DNA of 53,714 nt. Origin: Bacteroidaceae bacterium. GTDB lineage: Bacteria > Bacteroidota > Bacteroidia > Bacteroidales > Bacteroidaceae. The position numbers were made by a program, and so were the translations under genes. The first letter of the stretch is position 1, and every line of letters starts with the position of its first letter. This document shows, piece after piece, positions 411 to 8,329 of the stretch. Location of the stretch: contig JAGBFX010000041.1 in the NCBI GenBank assembly GCA_017936265.1, positions 1 through 53,714 on the forward strand, in the 5' to 3' direction. The notes under the pieces are model-generated. The model did not search any database. It worked only from the letters and a program-made list of their open reading frames with translations, and was not told the origin of the DNA.

Positions 411-516
411 CAGGAGGGAGTTATTTGTAGGGGCGGGGTTAGCCCGCCCTTGAGTATATTATTTTAGACATAAGAACATAAGTACAAAAGGCAATGCACA
501 CGGGTTAAAGGATGCA

Positions 517-712
517 CCCCTTGCAGTTATGGCATAAAGCTTCCGCAAGTGAACCTTGCGATGCATAAAACATTAAGGCTATGGCCTTGAAAATACATTT
601 TCAATTGCCCCATCCTTAATGTTTTATCTACATGGAAATCCTATTCCATGTGCCTATGCTCATAACCTAAGGGGCTTATGTCTTTCTGTCTAATTTATTT
701 ATCCCTTGTGGT
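517..712 (+). ncRNA. Predicted four-way-junction RNA element, copy 1
   Basis: The plus strand can fold into a closed cloverleaf. P1 pairs 517-522 with 669-674, 526-531 with 661-666 and 532-536 with 655-659. P2 pairs 544-549 with 555-560. P3 pairs 565-578 with 614-627 (14 perfect pairs), then 581-584 with 610-613, capped by 587-593 with 598-604. P4 pairs 631-637 with 644-650. A tail follows with CTGTCT (686) and CCCTT (703). The same helix order, similar linker lengths and the same tail occur at 5233-5415 with different helix sequences. No terminator or own promoter is evident, and the element lies upstream of the promoter at 802-833. Transcription is therefore unproven, and a DNA-level cruciform or recombination site is the main alternative. 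Strand is assigned by analogy with the neighbouring gene. Confidence 0.45.
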
Positions 713-1011: not shown

Positions 1012-3441
1012 ATGAAAAAATTTTTACTTTCAATTTTTGCTGTGCTCTTTGCATTCGCAGGAGCGCAGGCAGAGACACTGACATTAACTGCCGGTACTGA
1101 TTTTACCACTACTAGTGGCGAATTCCTTGACGGAAGTTTGAAAATGACTACAGCCAAGAATTCTTCTAGTAGTAGTCCGGCATATAATGCTAATAGTAAA
1201 GAGTTGCGTCTTTATTATAACTCAGGAGGCAATGGCGGTTCTGTGACTTTTACGACAGATGGAACAATAAAAATTACCGGTGTTAAGGTTACTGCTTCTA
1301 CTACTCCTACCGTAAAATACTCCGTTAATGGTGGTAACATGGTGTTTGCCGGTAGTTGGACTGGTGGAGCAATAACAATTTCTGGTATTGAAGCAACGGA
1401 AAGTATAGAAATCCAGAATGCAAATACAACCAATACCCAGCTTCGCATTACATCATTTGTAATTACATATGAGACAGTTGGTGTGCTCGTTTCAAAACCG
1501 GAGTTCACTCCTGAGGACGGAACTCGATTTGATGAGAGTCTTGAAGTTTCTATAGATGTCGAAGACGGTTTGAAAGCATTCTATTCTATAGATGGCGGCG
1601 TTAATTATCAGGAGGGAAACTCGGTAGTTATCACTGAGACAACAACTATCCTTGCTTATGCAGAGGATGGCGCCGGCAATAAGAGTGCCGAAGTTTCAGC
1701 TACATACACAAAAAATGTGCCGGGTCAGGTGATTGACGAACTTACGCGTGCTACTACAGGTATTACAGGTTCAACTTATACAGATTGGAACAACAAAACA
1801 GCGACATCTTCAGCTGTATATGCTGGTCAGTCAGCAGGTGGAAACGACGCAATCCAGTTGCGTTCAAATAACAGCAACTCTGGTATTGTGACAACTGCTT
1901 CAGGCGGTAAGGTAAAGAAGGTTGCTGTTGTGTGGCAGAGTAGTACAAGCGGTGGCCGCACATTGAATGTTTATGGCAAGAATACTGCGTATAGCGCAGC
2001 AACTGATTTGTATTCTACTTCAACACAGGGTACATTGCTTGGCACAATTGTTTGCGGCACATCAACAGAACTTGTAATTGAGGGCGATTATGAATACATT
2101 GGTGTGTGTTCTGCAAGCGGTGCTATGTACTTGACAAGCATCAGCATAACTTGGGATGAGAGTGCAGGTGTAACTCCGGTTGCTCCTAATGCTCCTGTTC
2201 TTCCTGCTTCAACAACATTTGAGGGTAGCATGTTGGTTGAGATTACAGGTATTGCAGCAGATGCTACTGTTTATTACACAACAGACGAGAGTGACCCTGC
2301 AACATCGGCTACTCGCGTAGAATATACCGAGCCATTTGAAATCACTGCTACAACAACAGTAAAGGCAGTTGCTGTAAACGAGGTAGGTGCAAGTGAAGTG
2401 GTAACTAAGATATATACACTGTTCGTTGTTGAAGAAACTGAGGGCTATTATATAAAGGTTGTTTCGGAACCAACAGACTGGAGCGGTAAGTATCTTATCG
2501 TTTATGAGGAAGGAACAGATGCATACGTGTTTAACGGTAAGGACGAGGCTAACGGTTATGTATCTGCTGTAACTGATGGTGATGTAATTAAGGCAAACAG
2601 TGAGATTGATGCTGTTGCTGTTACAATTGCTGCAATGGAAGGCGGTTACTCAGTAAAGACTGCGGGCGGTTACATATATGGTGCATCCGGTTCAAATAAA
2701 CTTAACACTAATGCAAGTGAACCGCAATTAAATACTATTGAGTTCACTGCTGATGGTGTTAATATTGAGGCTGGAAGATATCTTCGATTTAATTCCGCTG
2801 TTGGTGATATGCGTTTCCGCTATTATAACTTGACATATGGTGAGTCTGTCCAGCTTTACAAATATGTAGAGGAACTTCCAACAAGTCACACCCTCACAGT
2901 ATCAGAAGCCGGCTATGCTACATTGTTCCTTGGTTTCAATGCAAGAATTCCATCTGCAGTGGAAGCATATACAGTAACAACAGTAAACAACGGTTGGGTT
3001 TCTTTGACTCAGGTAACAGGTGTTCTCCCAGCAGAAACAGGTGTTATCATTAAGGCTTCTGCAGGAGAGTATAAGTTCTTCGATGAGGCAACAGCAACCG
3101 CAGACGTTACTGGCAACCTTTTGGAGGGTACTGCTGCTGCAACTGAGATTGATGTAGAGGCTTATGTTCTTGGCAACGTTGACGGTGTTGGCCTTTACAA
3201 GGCAAAGATGACTGACGGCAAGTGGCTTAACAACGCCAACAAGGCATACTTGCCTGCAAGCGTTGCAAATGGTGCTGCTTCTTACAGCTTCCGTTTCGGC
3301 GAGGGCACAACAGGCATCAACGAGATAACAGATAACAGAGTACAGAGTACAGTTATCTACGACCTTACAGGCCGCCGTGTTGAGAACATCAGCGCTCCCG
3401 GTATTTACATTGTAAACGGCAAAAAGGTACTTGTTAAGTAA
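1012..3441 (+). CDS. Large secreted multidomain protein with chitobiase-like repeats and a C-terminal sorting tail
   Basis: Product is 809 residues with a clear signal peptide (residues 1-20, ending AQA). Visible modules are an N-terminal beta-rich domain (about 22-155), a CHB_HEX_C-like domain with FYSIDGG (about 158-235), a second beta-sandwich (240-385), a second chitobiase-like domain with YYTTDESDP (about 395-470), and a beta-rich region (475-620). A C-terminal region (625-809) ends in YDLTGRRV...GIYIVNGKKVLVK. Such tails are known as type IX secretion or cell-surface anchoring signals in Bacteroidota. There is no catalytic motif, so a role in surface binding or adhesion is inference. 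Residues about 625-809 closely match the C-terminus of the 5559 gene. The ATG follows an AT-rich leader without a Shine-Dalgarno, as is usual in this phylum. Confidence 0.85.
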   Translation: MKKFLLSIFAVLFAFAGAQAETLTLTAGTDFTTTSGEFLDGSLKMTTAKNSSSSSPAYNANSKELRLYYNSGGNGGSVTFTTDGTIKITGVKVTASTTPTVKYSVNGGNMVFAGSWTGGAITISGIEATESIEIQNANTTNTQLRITSFVITYETVGVLVSKPEFTPEDGTRFDESLEVSIDVEDGLKAFYSIDGGVNYQEGNSVVITETTTILAYAEDGAGNKSAEVSATYTKNVPGQVIDELTRATTGITGSTYTDWNNKTATSSAVYAGQSAGGNDAIQLRSNNSNSGIVTTASGGKVKKVAVVWQSSTSGGRTLNVYGKNTAYSAATDLYSTSTQGTLLGTIVCGTSTELVIEGDYEYIGVCSASGAMYLTSISITWDESAGVTPVAPNAPVLPASTTFEGSMLVEITGIAADATVYYTTDESDPATSATRVEYTEPFEITATTTVKAVAVNEVGASEVVTKIYTLFVVEETEGYYIKVVSEPTDWSGKYLIVYEEGTDAYVFNGKDEANGYVSAVTDGDVIKANSEIDAVAVTIAAMEGGYSVKTAGGYIYGASGSNKLNTNASEPQLNTIEFTADGVNIEAGRYLRFNSAVGDMRFRYYNLTYGESVQLYKYVEELPTSHTLTVSEAGYATLFLGFNARIPSAVEAYTVTTVNNGWVSLTQVTGVLPAETGVIIKASAGEYKFFDEATATADVTGNLLEGTAAATEIDVEAYVLGNVDGVGLYKAKMTDGKWLNNANKAYLPASVANGAASYSFRFGEGTTGINEITDNRVQSTVIYDLTGRRVENISAPGIYIVNGKKVLVK

Positions 3442-3920: not shown

Positions 3921-5105
3921 TTAGAACAATTCATTTATATTCAATGATAGAAAATCTTCAACATCAATGCCGCCGTCACCCACAATGAGGGATTCTTGGG
4001 GATTGAACATCTGCTTGAATTTCTCCAGGCCCGTTGTCCTTCTTTCGGCATTGCTCTTTACCTCAATTGCTACAATTGATCCTTTCTTCTGAAGAATGAA
4101 ATCTACCTCGTCATTGCGTTCACGCCAGTAGTATATATTAAAACGATTGACAAAAGCACTGCTTACAAGATATGCTCCTATACCTGATTCATATATGTGC
4201 CCCCAACTTGTGCGGTCGAGGATGGCCTGCTCAAATGAGTGTTGGCAGTATGCAGTCTTGAGTGCGTTGTTGTATACCTGAAATTTAGGTATACTCGCTT
4301 TTCTCCTTGATAAGTCAATGCTGTATTTCTGCAATCCGCATAACAGCCCACTATCATTAAGCAGGTTTATGTAACCTGCCAGCGTAGATGTATTGCCTGC
4401 ATCCTGCAGAGAGCCCAGCATCTTGTTCAATGATAGCAGGTTGCCTGAGTATGCGGCTCCAAGCTCAAATGTTTGTCTCAATAGTGCAGGTTTGCTGATT
4501 GGGGTATCCATCAATATGTCCTTATTGATAGTTGCATCTATTATGGCGGACTGGATGTATTGTCCAAAACGTTCGTCCTCTCCAATCAAAGTTGCTGCTC
4601 CCGGATAACCGCCGTAGAAGAGGTATTGTTCAACTGTAAAGCCAAAGCAATCTTTCATCTCGTTGTAGCTCCAGTGGCTCATGCGTATCTCTTCGAACCT
4701 GCCTGCCAATGATTCCGATAGGCCCTTTTCGAGTAACACCCTGCTGCTGCCAAGGAGTAAAACCTTTATGTTGCAGTCGTTGAATGTGTCATAGTCCCAT
4801 TCCTTCTTTACCGCTTCGCTCCAATTGGCGATTTTTTGTATCTCGTCAATTACTAGTACAACGCTTTCCCAGCCTTTGTTCTTTTTCAGGCTACGTGTGG
4901 CTGCCCAACAATTGGAAATCCAAGCGCCGTTTGTTGCAGGGACATTGTCGGCAGTGAAGAACTGATAGGGCTGCGACAGTTCTTTAAGTACTTGCTTCAC
5001 AACTGTTGACTTTCCAATCTGGCGCGCGCCAATTACAACTTGAATGAATTTCCTGTTCTCTTCAAGCCTGGTTTTAATCTTCTGGTATTCAGCTCTTTTG
5101 TACAT
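3921..5105 (-). CDS. AAA ATPase with DUF4143-type C-terminal domain
   Basis: Product is 394 residues. Walker A is GARQIGKST at residues 26-34 and Walker B ends VLVIDE at 83-88. The C-terminal part has the typical YYWRERNDEVDFI...IAIEVKS segment (about 325-355), the nuclease-like fold of DUF4143 proteins. This family is widespread in Bacteroidota, cytoplasmic, usually monocistronic, and its cellular role is unknown. The gene faces against both neighbours. Near-identical direct repeats lie at 3867-3914 and 5188-5234, right outside its two ends, suggesting it arrived or moves as a unit. The ATG at 5105 gives the expected N-terminus for the family. Confidence 0.88.
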   Translation of the reverse strand: MYKRAEYQKIKTRLEENRKFIQVVIGARQIGKSTVVKQVLKELSQPYQFFTADNVPATNGAWISNCWAATRSLKKNKGWESVVLVIDEIQKIANWSEAVKKEWDYDTFNDCNIKVLLLGSSRVLLEKGLSESLAGRFEEIRMSHWSYNEMKDCFGFTVEQYLFYGGYPGAATLIGEDERFGQYIQSAIIDATINKDILMDTPISKPALLRQTFELGAAYSGNLLSLNKMLGSLQDAGNTSTLAGYINLLNDSGLLCGLQKYSIDLSRRKASIPKFQVYNNALKTAYCQHSFEQAILDRTSWGHIYESGIGAYLVSSAFVNRFNIYYWRERNDEVDFILQKKGSIVAIEVKSNAERRTTGLEKFKQMFNPQESLIVGDGGIDVEDFLSLNINELF

Positions 5106-5187: not shown

Positions 5188-5234
5188 CGAGATTTCTCCT
5201 ATCGTCGAAATGACAAGTTCGCGGTTTTTTTGCG
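5188..5234 (+). repeat. Dispersed repeat, copy upstream of the ATPase gene
   Basis: It contains AAATGACAAGTTCGCGGTT followed by a T-run, in the same orientation as 3867-3914 on the far side of the ATPase. The last bases overlap the first base-paired strand of the folded element that starts at 5233. Confidence 0.6.
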
Positions 5235-5415
5235 CAGTGATGGATTTTAACGGGAATCATTGATTCCCTGTATATCATAAGCCAGGGCTAATGCAATAGA
5301 AAAACTGTTTTCATTCCACAGCCTTGGCTTATGATATGCCACATGATGTTCATGTGTCGTTCCATCGCATTAGCGAGTGTTGTGTTGCTGTCTCCTTTGC
5401 ACATTCCCTTATGTT
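5233..5415 (+). ncRNA. Predicted four-way-junction RNA element, copy 2
   Basis: P1 pairs 5233-5235 with 5373-5375 and 5237-5244 with 5361-5368. P2 is 5252-5258 with 5262-5268. P3 is 5272-5289 with 5320-5337 (18 pairs, one G-U), capped by 5299-5303 with 5308-5312. P4 is 5340-5346 with 5350-5356. Linkers of 7, 3, 2 and 4 nt compare with 7, 4, 3 and 4 nt in copy 1. The tail again has CTGTCT (5388) then CCCTT (5406) at nearly the same spacing. GCTAATGC (5287-5294) in P3 could alternatively pair with GCATTAGC (5367-5374), a possible switch or pseudoknot. The element ends about 40 nt before the promoter of the 5559 gene. No promoter of its own was found. Confidence 0.45.
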
Positions 5416-5456
5416 CTTTTGTCTTGAAATCTTATTGATAGCGACAACGATTTTTA

Positions 5457-5558: not shown

Positions 5559-7338
5559 ATGAAAAAAAATACTTTTATTCTCGCACTTGTGATGTCAATG
5601 CTGTCATTCACAAATGCAAAGGCTGATAAATTGCAGATACGAGTTGCAGAGTCAACCATAGAGAATTATTCTAATTATTATACAAATAATGTTTATGACG
5701 GCCGTTACGCTACCAAGTTCTGGTCGAATGGTAATCCGCAGGCCGGTTATACATTTACTGTCTATTTAGGCAGTTCTGCGAATGTGGGTGATATAAAGCT
5801 CTATTTTGACAATGGTGACCTGCCGTCCGATGGCGCAGTTATCGAAGTTAATGAGAATAATAGTGGTAACTGGGTTCAGGTTGGCGAGTCTTTGAATGGT
5901 GTTCAGGCGAATGATGTCGTTACACGCAATGCCGGAGGTGTATATACAAAACAGATTAGGCTCAGGTTTACACAGGCTTCAGCGTACTGGTTCCGGTTGC
6001 TGGAGTTCGAGGTGTATGAGTATGAGGTTGCTATTCAGGAGCGTACAATTTCTGCTGTTGCAGGAGAGGGTGGCTCTGTAACAATCAACGGCGGCAGCGA
6101 GGCTGTCACAAGTACGGAGGAGATACAGCTTGTTGCGGCTCCCGATTATGGCTATAAGTTTGTCCGTTGGACAGTAGGCGGCGAAGAGGTCTCAACTTCT
6201 GCCGAATATACCGACAATACCGATGGCAACAAGGAGTATGTTGCCGTGTTCGAGAAATTCGCTTCTACCGACGAGTGGTATGCTGCTATTGAGAAACCTA
6301 CATTTGCCGAAGGTGGTGGTACACACCTTATTGCAGGTGTAGAGTTTAATGGCGAGAACCTTCCTGGTTTTACTTATACCAAGGGAACCACATCCGCTTT
6401 CCAGAACGAAGCCTTTTCTGTTGTTCCCGGTGAGACATACTCTCTTTCTTTGACATACGAGTTGCACTGGGGCGACATTGCTCTTTACCAGATAGACCGT
6501 AACGGAACCGAAAAGAAATACGGTTACTATACTTGCCAGTGGGAGGCAAATGGTGACCCTTATGCTATCCTTGGCCGTAATGCCGAACTGATGTGCGATG
6601 AGTTCGGCGTTGAGGATTTTGCAGCACTTGAGCACACTAAATCGGGAGAGACAAACTACATTGAGTTGCCATATGAGATTACAGTGAGTGAAAACCACAA
6701 GCCCGGTGATCTCATCGTTGTACGTGCAATGATAGATAATGGTGACAATGGCGCTTATGGACAGGGTATAGAAGAGGGCGGATGCTTTGATATCCTCTTT
6801 GTCGTTGCTGAAAAGGAGCCCGTCGAGGATACAAGTGAATGGTCTACATTCTATCAGCCTTATCCTATAGTGCTTCCTGAAGGCGTAAATGCTTATATTG
6901 TAACAGCCGCAGCAAGTGATTATGTGACTTTGACACGATTTGAAGGAACAATTCCTGAAAATACAGCTGTGATTCTGAATAACGGGGAGCCTATGGGTGA
7001 AGCTGTTGATGTTGATTTCAGCACCAACTTGCTCAAGGGTACGACTGTAGATACTTATATTGATGAGGAGGCTTATGTCCTTTCAAAGGTTGACGGTGTT
7101 GTCGGTTTCTACAAGGCTGAAATGACAAATGGTACTTGGTTGAACAACGCTACCAAGGCATACTTGCCTGCAAGCGTTGCAAGTGGTGCAGCTTCTTACA
7201 GCTTCCGTTTCGGCGAGGGCACAACTGGCGTTGAGAAAGTAGAAATCAGAAATCTTCGACCTTACAGGCCGTCGCGTTGAGAACATCAGCGCTCCCGGTA
7301 TTTACATCATCAACGGTGTAAAAACACTTGTAAAGTAA
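5559..7338 (+). pseudogene. Secreted discoidin/InlB-repeat-like protein with frameshifted C-terminal sorting tail
   Basis: The uninterrupted frame runs 5559-7280 (573 residues). A signal peptide (1-22, ending AKA) is followed by a discoidin-like beta-sandwich (about 23-155), a bacterial repeat with GGSVTINGG...KFVRWTVGGE (about 160-230), a beta-rich middle domain and a C-terminal region nearly identical to that of the 1012 gene. The frame then ends in an aberrant NLRPYRPSR. In the next frame, from about 7252, one reads IFDLTGRRV...GIYIINGVKTLVK with a stop at 7336-7338, the expected sorting tail. One extra A in the AAA at 7243-7245 would explain it: removing one gives GVEKVESEIFDLTGRR. So this is either a recent pseudogene, a phase-variable allele or a sequencing error. 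Type 'pseudogene' refers only to the frameshift; all else looks functional. Confidence 0.75.
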
Positions 7339-7830: not shown

Positions 7831-8329
7831 CCCGATGGCTGAACGAAAAGTTGTTTGCGAAAAGCAACGGCCGGCCGAATGCTCGCCATAGCGGCATGAG
7901 CGAAAGGCGCTTGTGACGATTTTTTCCGAGTGCCGGGCGCTTTTTGTTACTTTTTCACGCGATGAAAAAGTAAAGAAAGAACGACAAAAGAAAAAATACA
8001 AGCCAACAAGTCAAGGGTAAGTGAATGGCTGAATATAAGAACTGTTGATTAGCAATACAAACCAAGGGCGAACACATCGGTTCGCACCTACGGAGCCTCT
8101 CCTGTAGAGAGGGAATCAAAATATGTGGAAGAGATCCCTCGGCGCTGCGCTTTGTCGGGATGACAAGTACGCAATATAGCCCAAGGCGGGCAGACCCCGC
8201 CCCTACAACCCGATGTTGTAAATAACGTTACACGCTACACAAAACCCTCCCTCTGTCTTTAACATCTCTTAATCCCTTGTAGATTAAAGATAATCTCTGC
8301 ATAAACCACCGTTATTGCGCGGAATTTCG

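Follow-up and report, generated by a model that had tools for sequence, protein, structure and literature searches.

Two stretches of the window (the whole stretch of DNA that was analysed, 53,714 nucleotides) can be folded into a cloverleaf, in which a helix, P1, closes three hairpins, P2, P3 and P4. Such a fold could belong to an RNA whose structure is conserved, or to a piece of DNA whose arms are kept complementary in some other way. We sought to determine which of these is the case.

The cloverleaf, its ends and its copies

Refolding agrees with the preliminary description in placing three hairpins within P1, with a P2 of 17 nt in both copies and a P3 of 63 and 66 nt (Table 1). The MFE is -68.8 kcal/mol for the cloverleaf of copy 1 at 526-666 (z -5.28) and -72.4 kcal/mol for that of copy 2 (z -6.44), and in each case none of 200 shuffles equalled it. 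On the basis of these z scores and shuffle comparisons, we regard the cloverleaf as real and above chance.

The boundaries had to be redrawn. The initial extent, 517-712, is too small, as copy 1 begins at its left terminal repeat, at about 462. A tail reading CTGTCT...CCCTT had been thought common to both copies; in copy 1, CTGTCT is the end of the right terminal repeat, and the corresponding repeat of copy 2 lies farther on. For copy 2, no left terminal repeat was found. The two window copies are non-coding, like a MITE, in that no ORF of at least 80 aa overlaps 462-691 or 5222-5424.

Table 1. Features of the two window copies and their surroundings (positions in the window).
Feature	Position	Strand	Basis
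GTAG-type GC-rich palindrome, REP-like, outside left end of copy 1	427..450 (within 425-460)	+	sequence, homology; GTAG REP class in the available text of PMC3733652
Left terminal inverted repeat, copy 1, words AGACATAAG-AACATAAG-TACAAAAG	462..490	+	pattern match, end-word count
Outer P1, 5' side, CCCCTT, partner 669-674	517..522	+	fold
P1, 5' arm, partner 655-666	526..536	+	fold; helix 1 of covariation test
P2 hairpin	544..560	+	fold; helix 2 of covariation test
P3, long central hairpin; arm inverted between some other copies	565..627	+	fold; helix 3 of covariation test; inversion test
P4 hairpin	630..651	+	fold; helix 4 of covariation test
P1, 3' arm	655..666	+	fold
Outer P1, 3' side, AAGGGG	669..674	+	fold
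Right terminal inverted repeat, copy 1, CTTATGTCTTTCTGTCT; homology with c18a stops at its end, 691	675..691	-	pattern match, alignment
Neighbour gene outside element, secreted-type protein, CHB_HEX_C_1 and Fn3_assoc domains	1012..3441	+	ORF, domain search
Copy 2 cloverleaf: P1 5237-5244 with 5361-5368, P2 5252-5268, P3 5272-5337, P4 5341-5355	5237..5368	+	fold; covariance model R2
Right terminal repeat, copy 2, CTTATGTTCTTTTGTCT	5408..5424	-	pattern match, end-word count
Neighbour gene outside element, InlB-repeat-like domain; F5/8 type C under its cut-off	5559..7280	+	ORF, domain search

The left repeat of copy 1 fits the end pattern with 0 mismatches at 466-482, in a window scan that gave 5 matches at up to 3 mismatches where 0.38 were expected. 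Two or more ACAnAAG words flank at least one side of 22 of the 25 copies described below, and both sides of 13; the segments tested on the right were 160 nt long. Three copies, c20, g035c84 and g027b, have fewer than two on either side. Among random 110-nt segments drawn from these loci, numbering fewer than 2000, only 6 have at least two such words on one strand. By these counts, the element has the terminal inverted repeats of a MITE. An insertion of an approximately 70-nt hairpin (AACTTCGTTGAACCTGCTTTCGCTCGC...CTCGCAG) was also seen in or beside the terminal repeats belonging to several copies, in L003 (about 1428-1500), L027 (about 4955-5035), L075 and L072.

What was at first taken for a two-copy family proved to have six copies in its own genome (G000) alone: two on contig C1, one on C17, two on C18 and one on C20. 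The C18 copies, c18a and c18b, are close relatives of copy 1 (88 and 87% identity in a DNA search of this genome). The C17 copy is a third sequence type, found through the terminal pattern, and the C20 copy is a fourth, found with R1, a covariance model from six copies. Homology on the left of copy 1 begins at 427 with c18b, at the GTAG-type palindrome, and about 12 bp earlier, at about 415, with c18a. Homology with both C18 copies takes in the palindrome, which may therefore be carried along with the element or be a marker of its target. A second GTAG-type GC-rich palindrome, inverted, is present near 8.2 kb of the window (8173-8208).

The preliminary description had proposed a covariance-model search, and this did find further copies with compensatory changes. 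When applied to the genus, R1 matched 11 of 44 genomes at E<=1, some of them by chance. A second model, R2, built after aligning 14 copies, found nine more copies in the 44 genomes, all outside its training set; copy 2, which scores 87.9 bits, is itself in that set. The tally before inspection was 16 of 44 genomes with R2 at E<=0.1. After inspection there are 25 copies of this cloverleaf (type I) in 11 of the 44: six in G000, five in G033, three each in G035 and G021, two in G027 (one degenerate) and one each in G003, G004, G022, G028, G030 and G032. In the remaining five genomes the matches were hairpins with no more than one end word, and were dropped. Several of the 25 copies are orthologous or have common flanks, so they do not amount to 25 independent insertions; the rest occupy differing sites, and the element thus has, like a MITE, many copies at unrelated sites. 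One stretch, L300 (G021:C139 5000-9746), holds three cloverleaf copies inside 3.2 kb of one contig.

With stricter filters, R2 matched 14 of 399 family genomes at E<=0.001, nine within the genus and five outside. We dropped the latter five as long terminator-like hairpins; three were read, and all five were tested and have at most one end word. As these matches were dropped, the cloverleaf is known here, from R2 over 44 genus and 399 family genomes, from one genus of gut Bacteroidaceae only. Among the matches listed, R1 on the 119 loci with the end pattern (see below) matched only L153, which is part of G035 itself, and L183. The latter (24 bits) and L029 were dropped by eye. Also removed before counting were 16 loci (L202-L206, L211, L268-L272 and L286-L290) and opposite-strand matches of the same copies. 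None of these 16 loci has at least two end words on a side, a comparison with the kept loci that is partly circular because ends and architecture also guided keeping. For the same reason, a copy with different ends would be missed, since end words helped decide which matches stayed.

It had been thought that no known family applies, and Rfam bears this out: there are no matches at the gathering threshold in the 53,714 bases, and all matches at E<=5 are far under gathering (the best has E 0.014 and scores 20.6 bits, where gathering requires 160). For a tRNA- or tmRNA-like cloverleaf, ARAGORN reports 0 genes of either type. There is no blastn match to the element in plasmid and phage records, and the exact end pattern is present in three IMG/VR contigs. 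We found no description of this family in the titles and opening parts of abstracts of open-licence papers.

Covariation, wobble pairs and arm inversion

The helices of the two window copies look unrelated in sequence, and were so described; intermediate copies reveal that the arms are homologous and diverged, as can be seen by eye at the P3 apex, CAATGnGAAAAC...GTTTTCnCATTG. The further claim, that pairing is kept through compensatory changes, holds on a large scale. Using a consensus structure of 73 pairs, derived from individual folds of the copies, 71.7% of cells pair, compared with 59.3±0.9 in shuffles and 37-43% with slid partners. Both sides have changed in 58 of the 73 pairs, against 38.9±3.0 in shuffles. 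The covariation score, 0.332, compares with 0.161±0.011 for shuffles (0 of 500 as high) and at most 0.141 for slides. The number of additional pair types exceeds that of shuffles only weakly: 42 of 500 shuffles reach it. It is important to note that the shuffle and slide controls both lean towards structure, because the structure derives from the sequences under test, several of which are close relatives.

Covariation of this strength would ordinarily be read as selection on an RNA. However, template switching in DNA replication has been reported to give rise to multiple compensatory changes and loop inversions (the available part of PMC8794818). Since this process gives the same pattern, covariation alone does not prove structural or RNA selection. 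Two further features bear on the choice between DNA and RNA.

One such feature is the wobble pair. A selected RNA strand should show more G·U pairs than A·C mismatches on that strand, and we scored both strands symmetrically. In the 25 copies there are 47 G·T and 58 A·C (p 0.33), with G·T making up 3.3% of paired cells, and in 15 non-redundant copies there are 29 and 39 (p 0.27); earlier counts were 35 and 50, and 55 and 76. As G·T is not commoner than A·C on either strand, neither strand behaves as a selected RNA.

The other feature is orientation of the arms. Of 8 pairs of copies that were compared, 3 have P3 inverted in place. One of these is g033c190 and g021c, which are 87% identical over 205 bp: their 30-nt P3 apices have 9 differences when compared directly and 1 after inversion, and the best single inversion, which raises the alignment score from 121 to 137, spans the P3 stem-loop. 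One inversion also raises the score from 77 to 87 for g027 and g021, and from 82 to 89 for g003 and g035c84, while in the five other pairs no inversion improves it; these scores are maxima over many segments, for which the five other pairs are the sole control. P2, too, seems to be inverted between copies, namely in g032 and g033e, as judged from few positions.

Insertion sites and other elements with the same ends

An element of approximately 290 bp lies between two co-directional genes in G033 (contig C22), and G022 lacks it between those two genes. This gives, at one locus, the filled and empty sites of a MITE. Copy 2 and a copy in G035 are 94% identical over 115 bp and have the head alone in common: their surroundings are different, and the G035 relative follows the orthologous ORF at a distance of 7 bp. 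G004 has a gene that shares its N-terminus with the gene at 1012, and upstream of it the end repeats are present without the cloverleaf. The g032 and g022 copies are orthologous and old.

The flanks show an excess of matching dinucleotides 11 nt outside both ends (24 of 89, against a permuted maximum of 16.4 on average) and TA at a fixed offset outside the ends in 18 of 87, but the promoter-like boxes in the shortest elements (see below) confound both. With the excess at one fixed offset only, no convincing target-site duplication was found from flank dinucleotides.

Both window copies lie upstream of genes, and a place upstream of the promoter of a secreted-protein gene had been proposed. Lying upstream of a gene is, however, no feature of the family at large. 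We scanned 24 copies, including two orthologous pairs, for mechanical ORFs of at least 90 aa within 700 bp, and the 17 with ORFs on both sides are 6 convergent, 5 divergent and 6 tandem. Since the three arrangements are nearly even, the position is not leader-like and shows no promoter preference.

At least 119 species-genome stretches, nearly all with a Bacteroidales label, contain the exact end pattern. Such ends enclose very short palindromes, longer hairpins, a second cloverleaf type and a GxxExxY-type ORF. The second cloverleaf type, of approximately 210 nt, was seen at L051 1505, L057 1505 and L069 1505 (G033:C78, G032:C21 and G030:C58), and consists of a long hairpin with AAATGCAC..GTGCATTT and GCAAC..GTTGC hairpins. 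The shortest elements, of up to 60 nt, are symmetric and come from GTDB Prevotella-type genomes (L083, L094, L097, L100-L102, L107, L109, L118, L119, L124 and others). The Bacteroidetes -7 promoter consensus is TAnnTTTG, and an outward box of this type lies within 45 nt of an end in 23 of 31 shortest elements, on both sides in 21 of 31. Among longer elements the figures are 2 of 29 and 3 of 27, and among random segments of 45 nt (one strand) 25 of 2380 have the box. Judged from these boxes, the shortest elements look like palindromic bidirectional promoters.

The GxxExxY-type ORF (TIGR04256 / PF13366) lies between the same terminal words in 5 loci, of which L150 and G014 were confirmed by HMM and the others assigned by blastp clustering. 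GxxExxY is the only protein family that recurs in different places, out of 45 ORFs of at least 70 aa between ends (154 loci, some overlapping). Such elements with these ends number one in the genus, that of G014, and 166 of the 295 genomes sampled from the order have GxxExxY proteins. No paper on these proteins was found in open-licence literature, as judged by titles and the opening parts of abstracts. The L150 element (Segatella baroniae, strand - from 1740) is 693 nt long and has extremely strong inverted arms, with -304 kcal/mol as a single strand. Flanking inverted repeats beat all controls in 12 of the 29 loci tested from the 30 top-scoring GxxExxY loci, and failed to in 17. Several of these repeats are built from short words of different sequence: in L230, L232, L234, L245, L250, L253 and others, GxxExxY genes lie within inverted arrays of CACAGAGTT and CGCAAAGAC types. 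The flanking arrays round GxxExxY genes suggest a wider class of single-gene elements.

In G000, which is 87% complete, no mobilising enzyme was found among the two families searched, PF13366 and PF01797, both of which are absent. GxxExxY was therefore rejected as a resident mobiliser. A RAYT/Y1 transposase (PF01797) was rejected on the same ground; it occurs in 5 of the 44 genomes of the genus, among them G004, which carries the cloverleaf, and 0 of the 5 loci have both left and right ends at up to 3 mismatches. No partner gene recurs beside cloverleaf copies. Five GxxExxY hits in G021 are in another context than these ends, and may be contamination.

Explanations and comparison with known systems

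We think it likely that the cloverleaf is the four-way-junction head of a dispersed, non-autonomous, MITE-like insertion element of approximately 200-300 bp, with arms that are repaired and flipped at the DNA level. This element is new in its cloverleaf head, and is probably not a stand-alone regulatory RNA. In the mechanism that we propose, terminal inverted repeats of 8-bp words enclose a large imperfect palindrome, whose head would fold in vivo, as single-stranded DNA or as a cruciform, into P1 closing P2, P3 and P4. The element would be moved by an enzyme that works on its ends in trans, movement being suggested by the one filled and empty site and by the relocated copies. Hairpins would arise in DNA that is being replicated or processed, and template switching, the probable route, or hairpin resolution would restore the complementarity of the arms and at times flip an arm in place, as the comparisons of copies indicate. 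Read-through transcripts would also fold, and the data do not need an RNA function.

It is also conceivable, if rather doubtful, that the element belongs to a novel class of mobile, palindromic DNA and moves via a folded single-stranded or hairpin intermediate. Its head would be cut by a structure-specific nuclease, possibly of the PD-(D/E)XK family GxxExxY, and each resolution could flip an arm. The analogy is with the terminal hairpins of parvoviruses, which show flip/flop.

The possibility that selection acts on a transcript, i.e., that the cloverleaf is a leader, sRNA or riboswitch-like RNA, has in its favor the very stable fold, the strong covariation and the location of both window copies upstream of genes. 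We consider it unlikely, given that a G·T excess is absent on either strand, that P3 (and seemingly P2, in two copies) is inverted in place, that gene context shows no preference among 17 copies, and that Rfam has no match. The preliminary description had left a choice between an RNA and a cruciform under structural selection; these observations, together with the signs of movement, speak against the former, and the latter fits better. If DNA-level processes suffice, one might dispense with transposition altogether and suppose an immobile quasi-palindrome, with arms kept complementary by template switching and with likeness between loci due to old duplication or recombination. Template switching does account for the compensatory changes and the loop inversion (PMC8794818, in the part available), and some copies, such as g032/g022, are orthologous and old. 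However, a filled and an empty site between the same two genes, heads with 94% identity in differing surroundings, and terminal repeats that recur make this explanation quite improbable. Lastly, the head might serve another mobile element as a site of recombination, replication or binding (attC-like, an origin or a nuclease substrate), and be carried by elements with these ends. The four-way junction geometry, the flipping arms and the GxxExxY-type ORF within the same ends in 5 loci are in keeping with this idea. It is nonetheless the least probable one, as no partner gene recurs beside cloverleaf copies, and the Y1 transposase is absent from G000 and rare in the genus.

With the MITE-like element as the preferred explanation, the covariation of a dispersed DNA repeat is strong enough for it to be taken for a conserved RNA. 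Because this repeat keeps its pairing via paired changes and flips an arm in place, it illustrates that mobile DNA can mimic conserved RNA. The approximately 25 homologous cloverleafs form a natural series for following arm inversion and compensatory change, and the GxxExxY proteins are candidate mobility proteins.

Several known systems share some of these properties. Template-switched hairpins, as far as the available text of PMC8794818 describes them, have in common with our element multiple compensatory changes and the inversion of a loop with the stem kept, but belong to rRNA and other RNA genes, whereas here a dispersed DNA repeat is involved. The GxxExxY single-gene elements with inverted ends have the same terminal words in 5 loci; they differ in their gene, since the window copies of the cloverleaf contain no ORF of at least 80 aa and G000 lacks PF13366. 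GTAG/CGTC REPs and TIRtrons are likewise dispersed palindromes, tyrosine transposase genes within long TIRs have been reported (both from the accessible portion of PMC3733652), and a GTAG-type palindrome adjoins copy 1. However, REPs are described there as palindromes of 20-40 bp. We do not regard the cloverleaf element as a REP or BIME, as it is about 230 bp long with three arms, and PF01797 is absent from G000. There is also a resemblance to bacterial MITEs such as ERIC/IRU, Correia/NEMIS and RUP, which, in the part of PMC2229807 available, are small, non-coding and mainly intergenic, have terminal inverted repeats and give a transcript that folds stably. The cloverleaf element differs from them in being larger and found in one genus only, in having ends made of repeated 8-bp words, and in having a three-armed head with in-place inversion.
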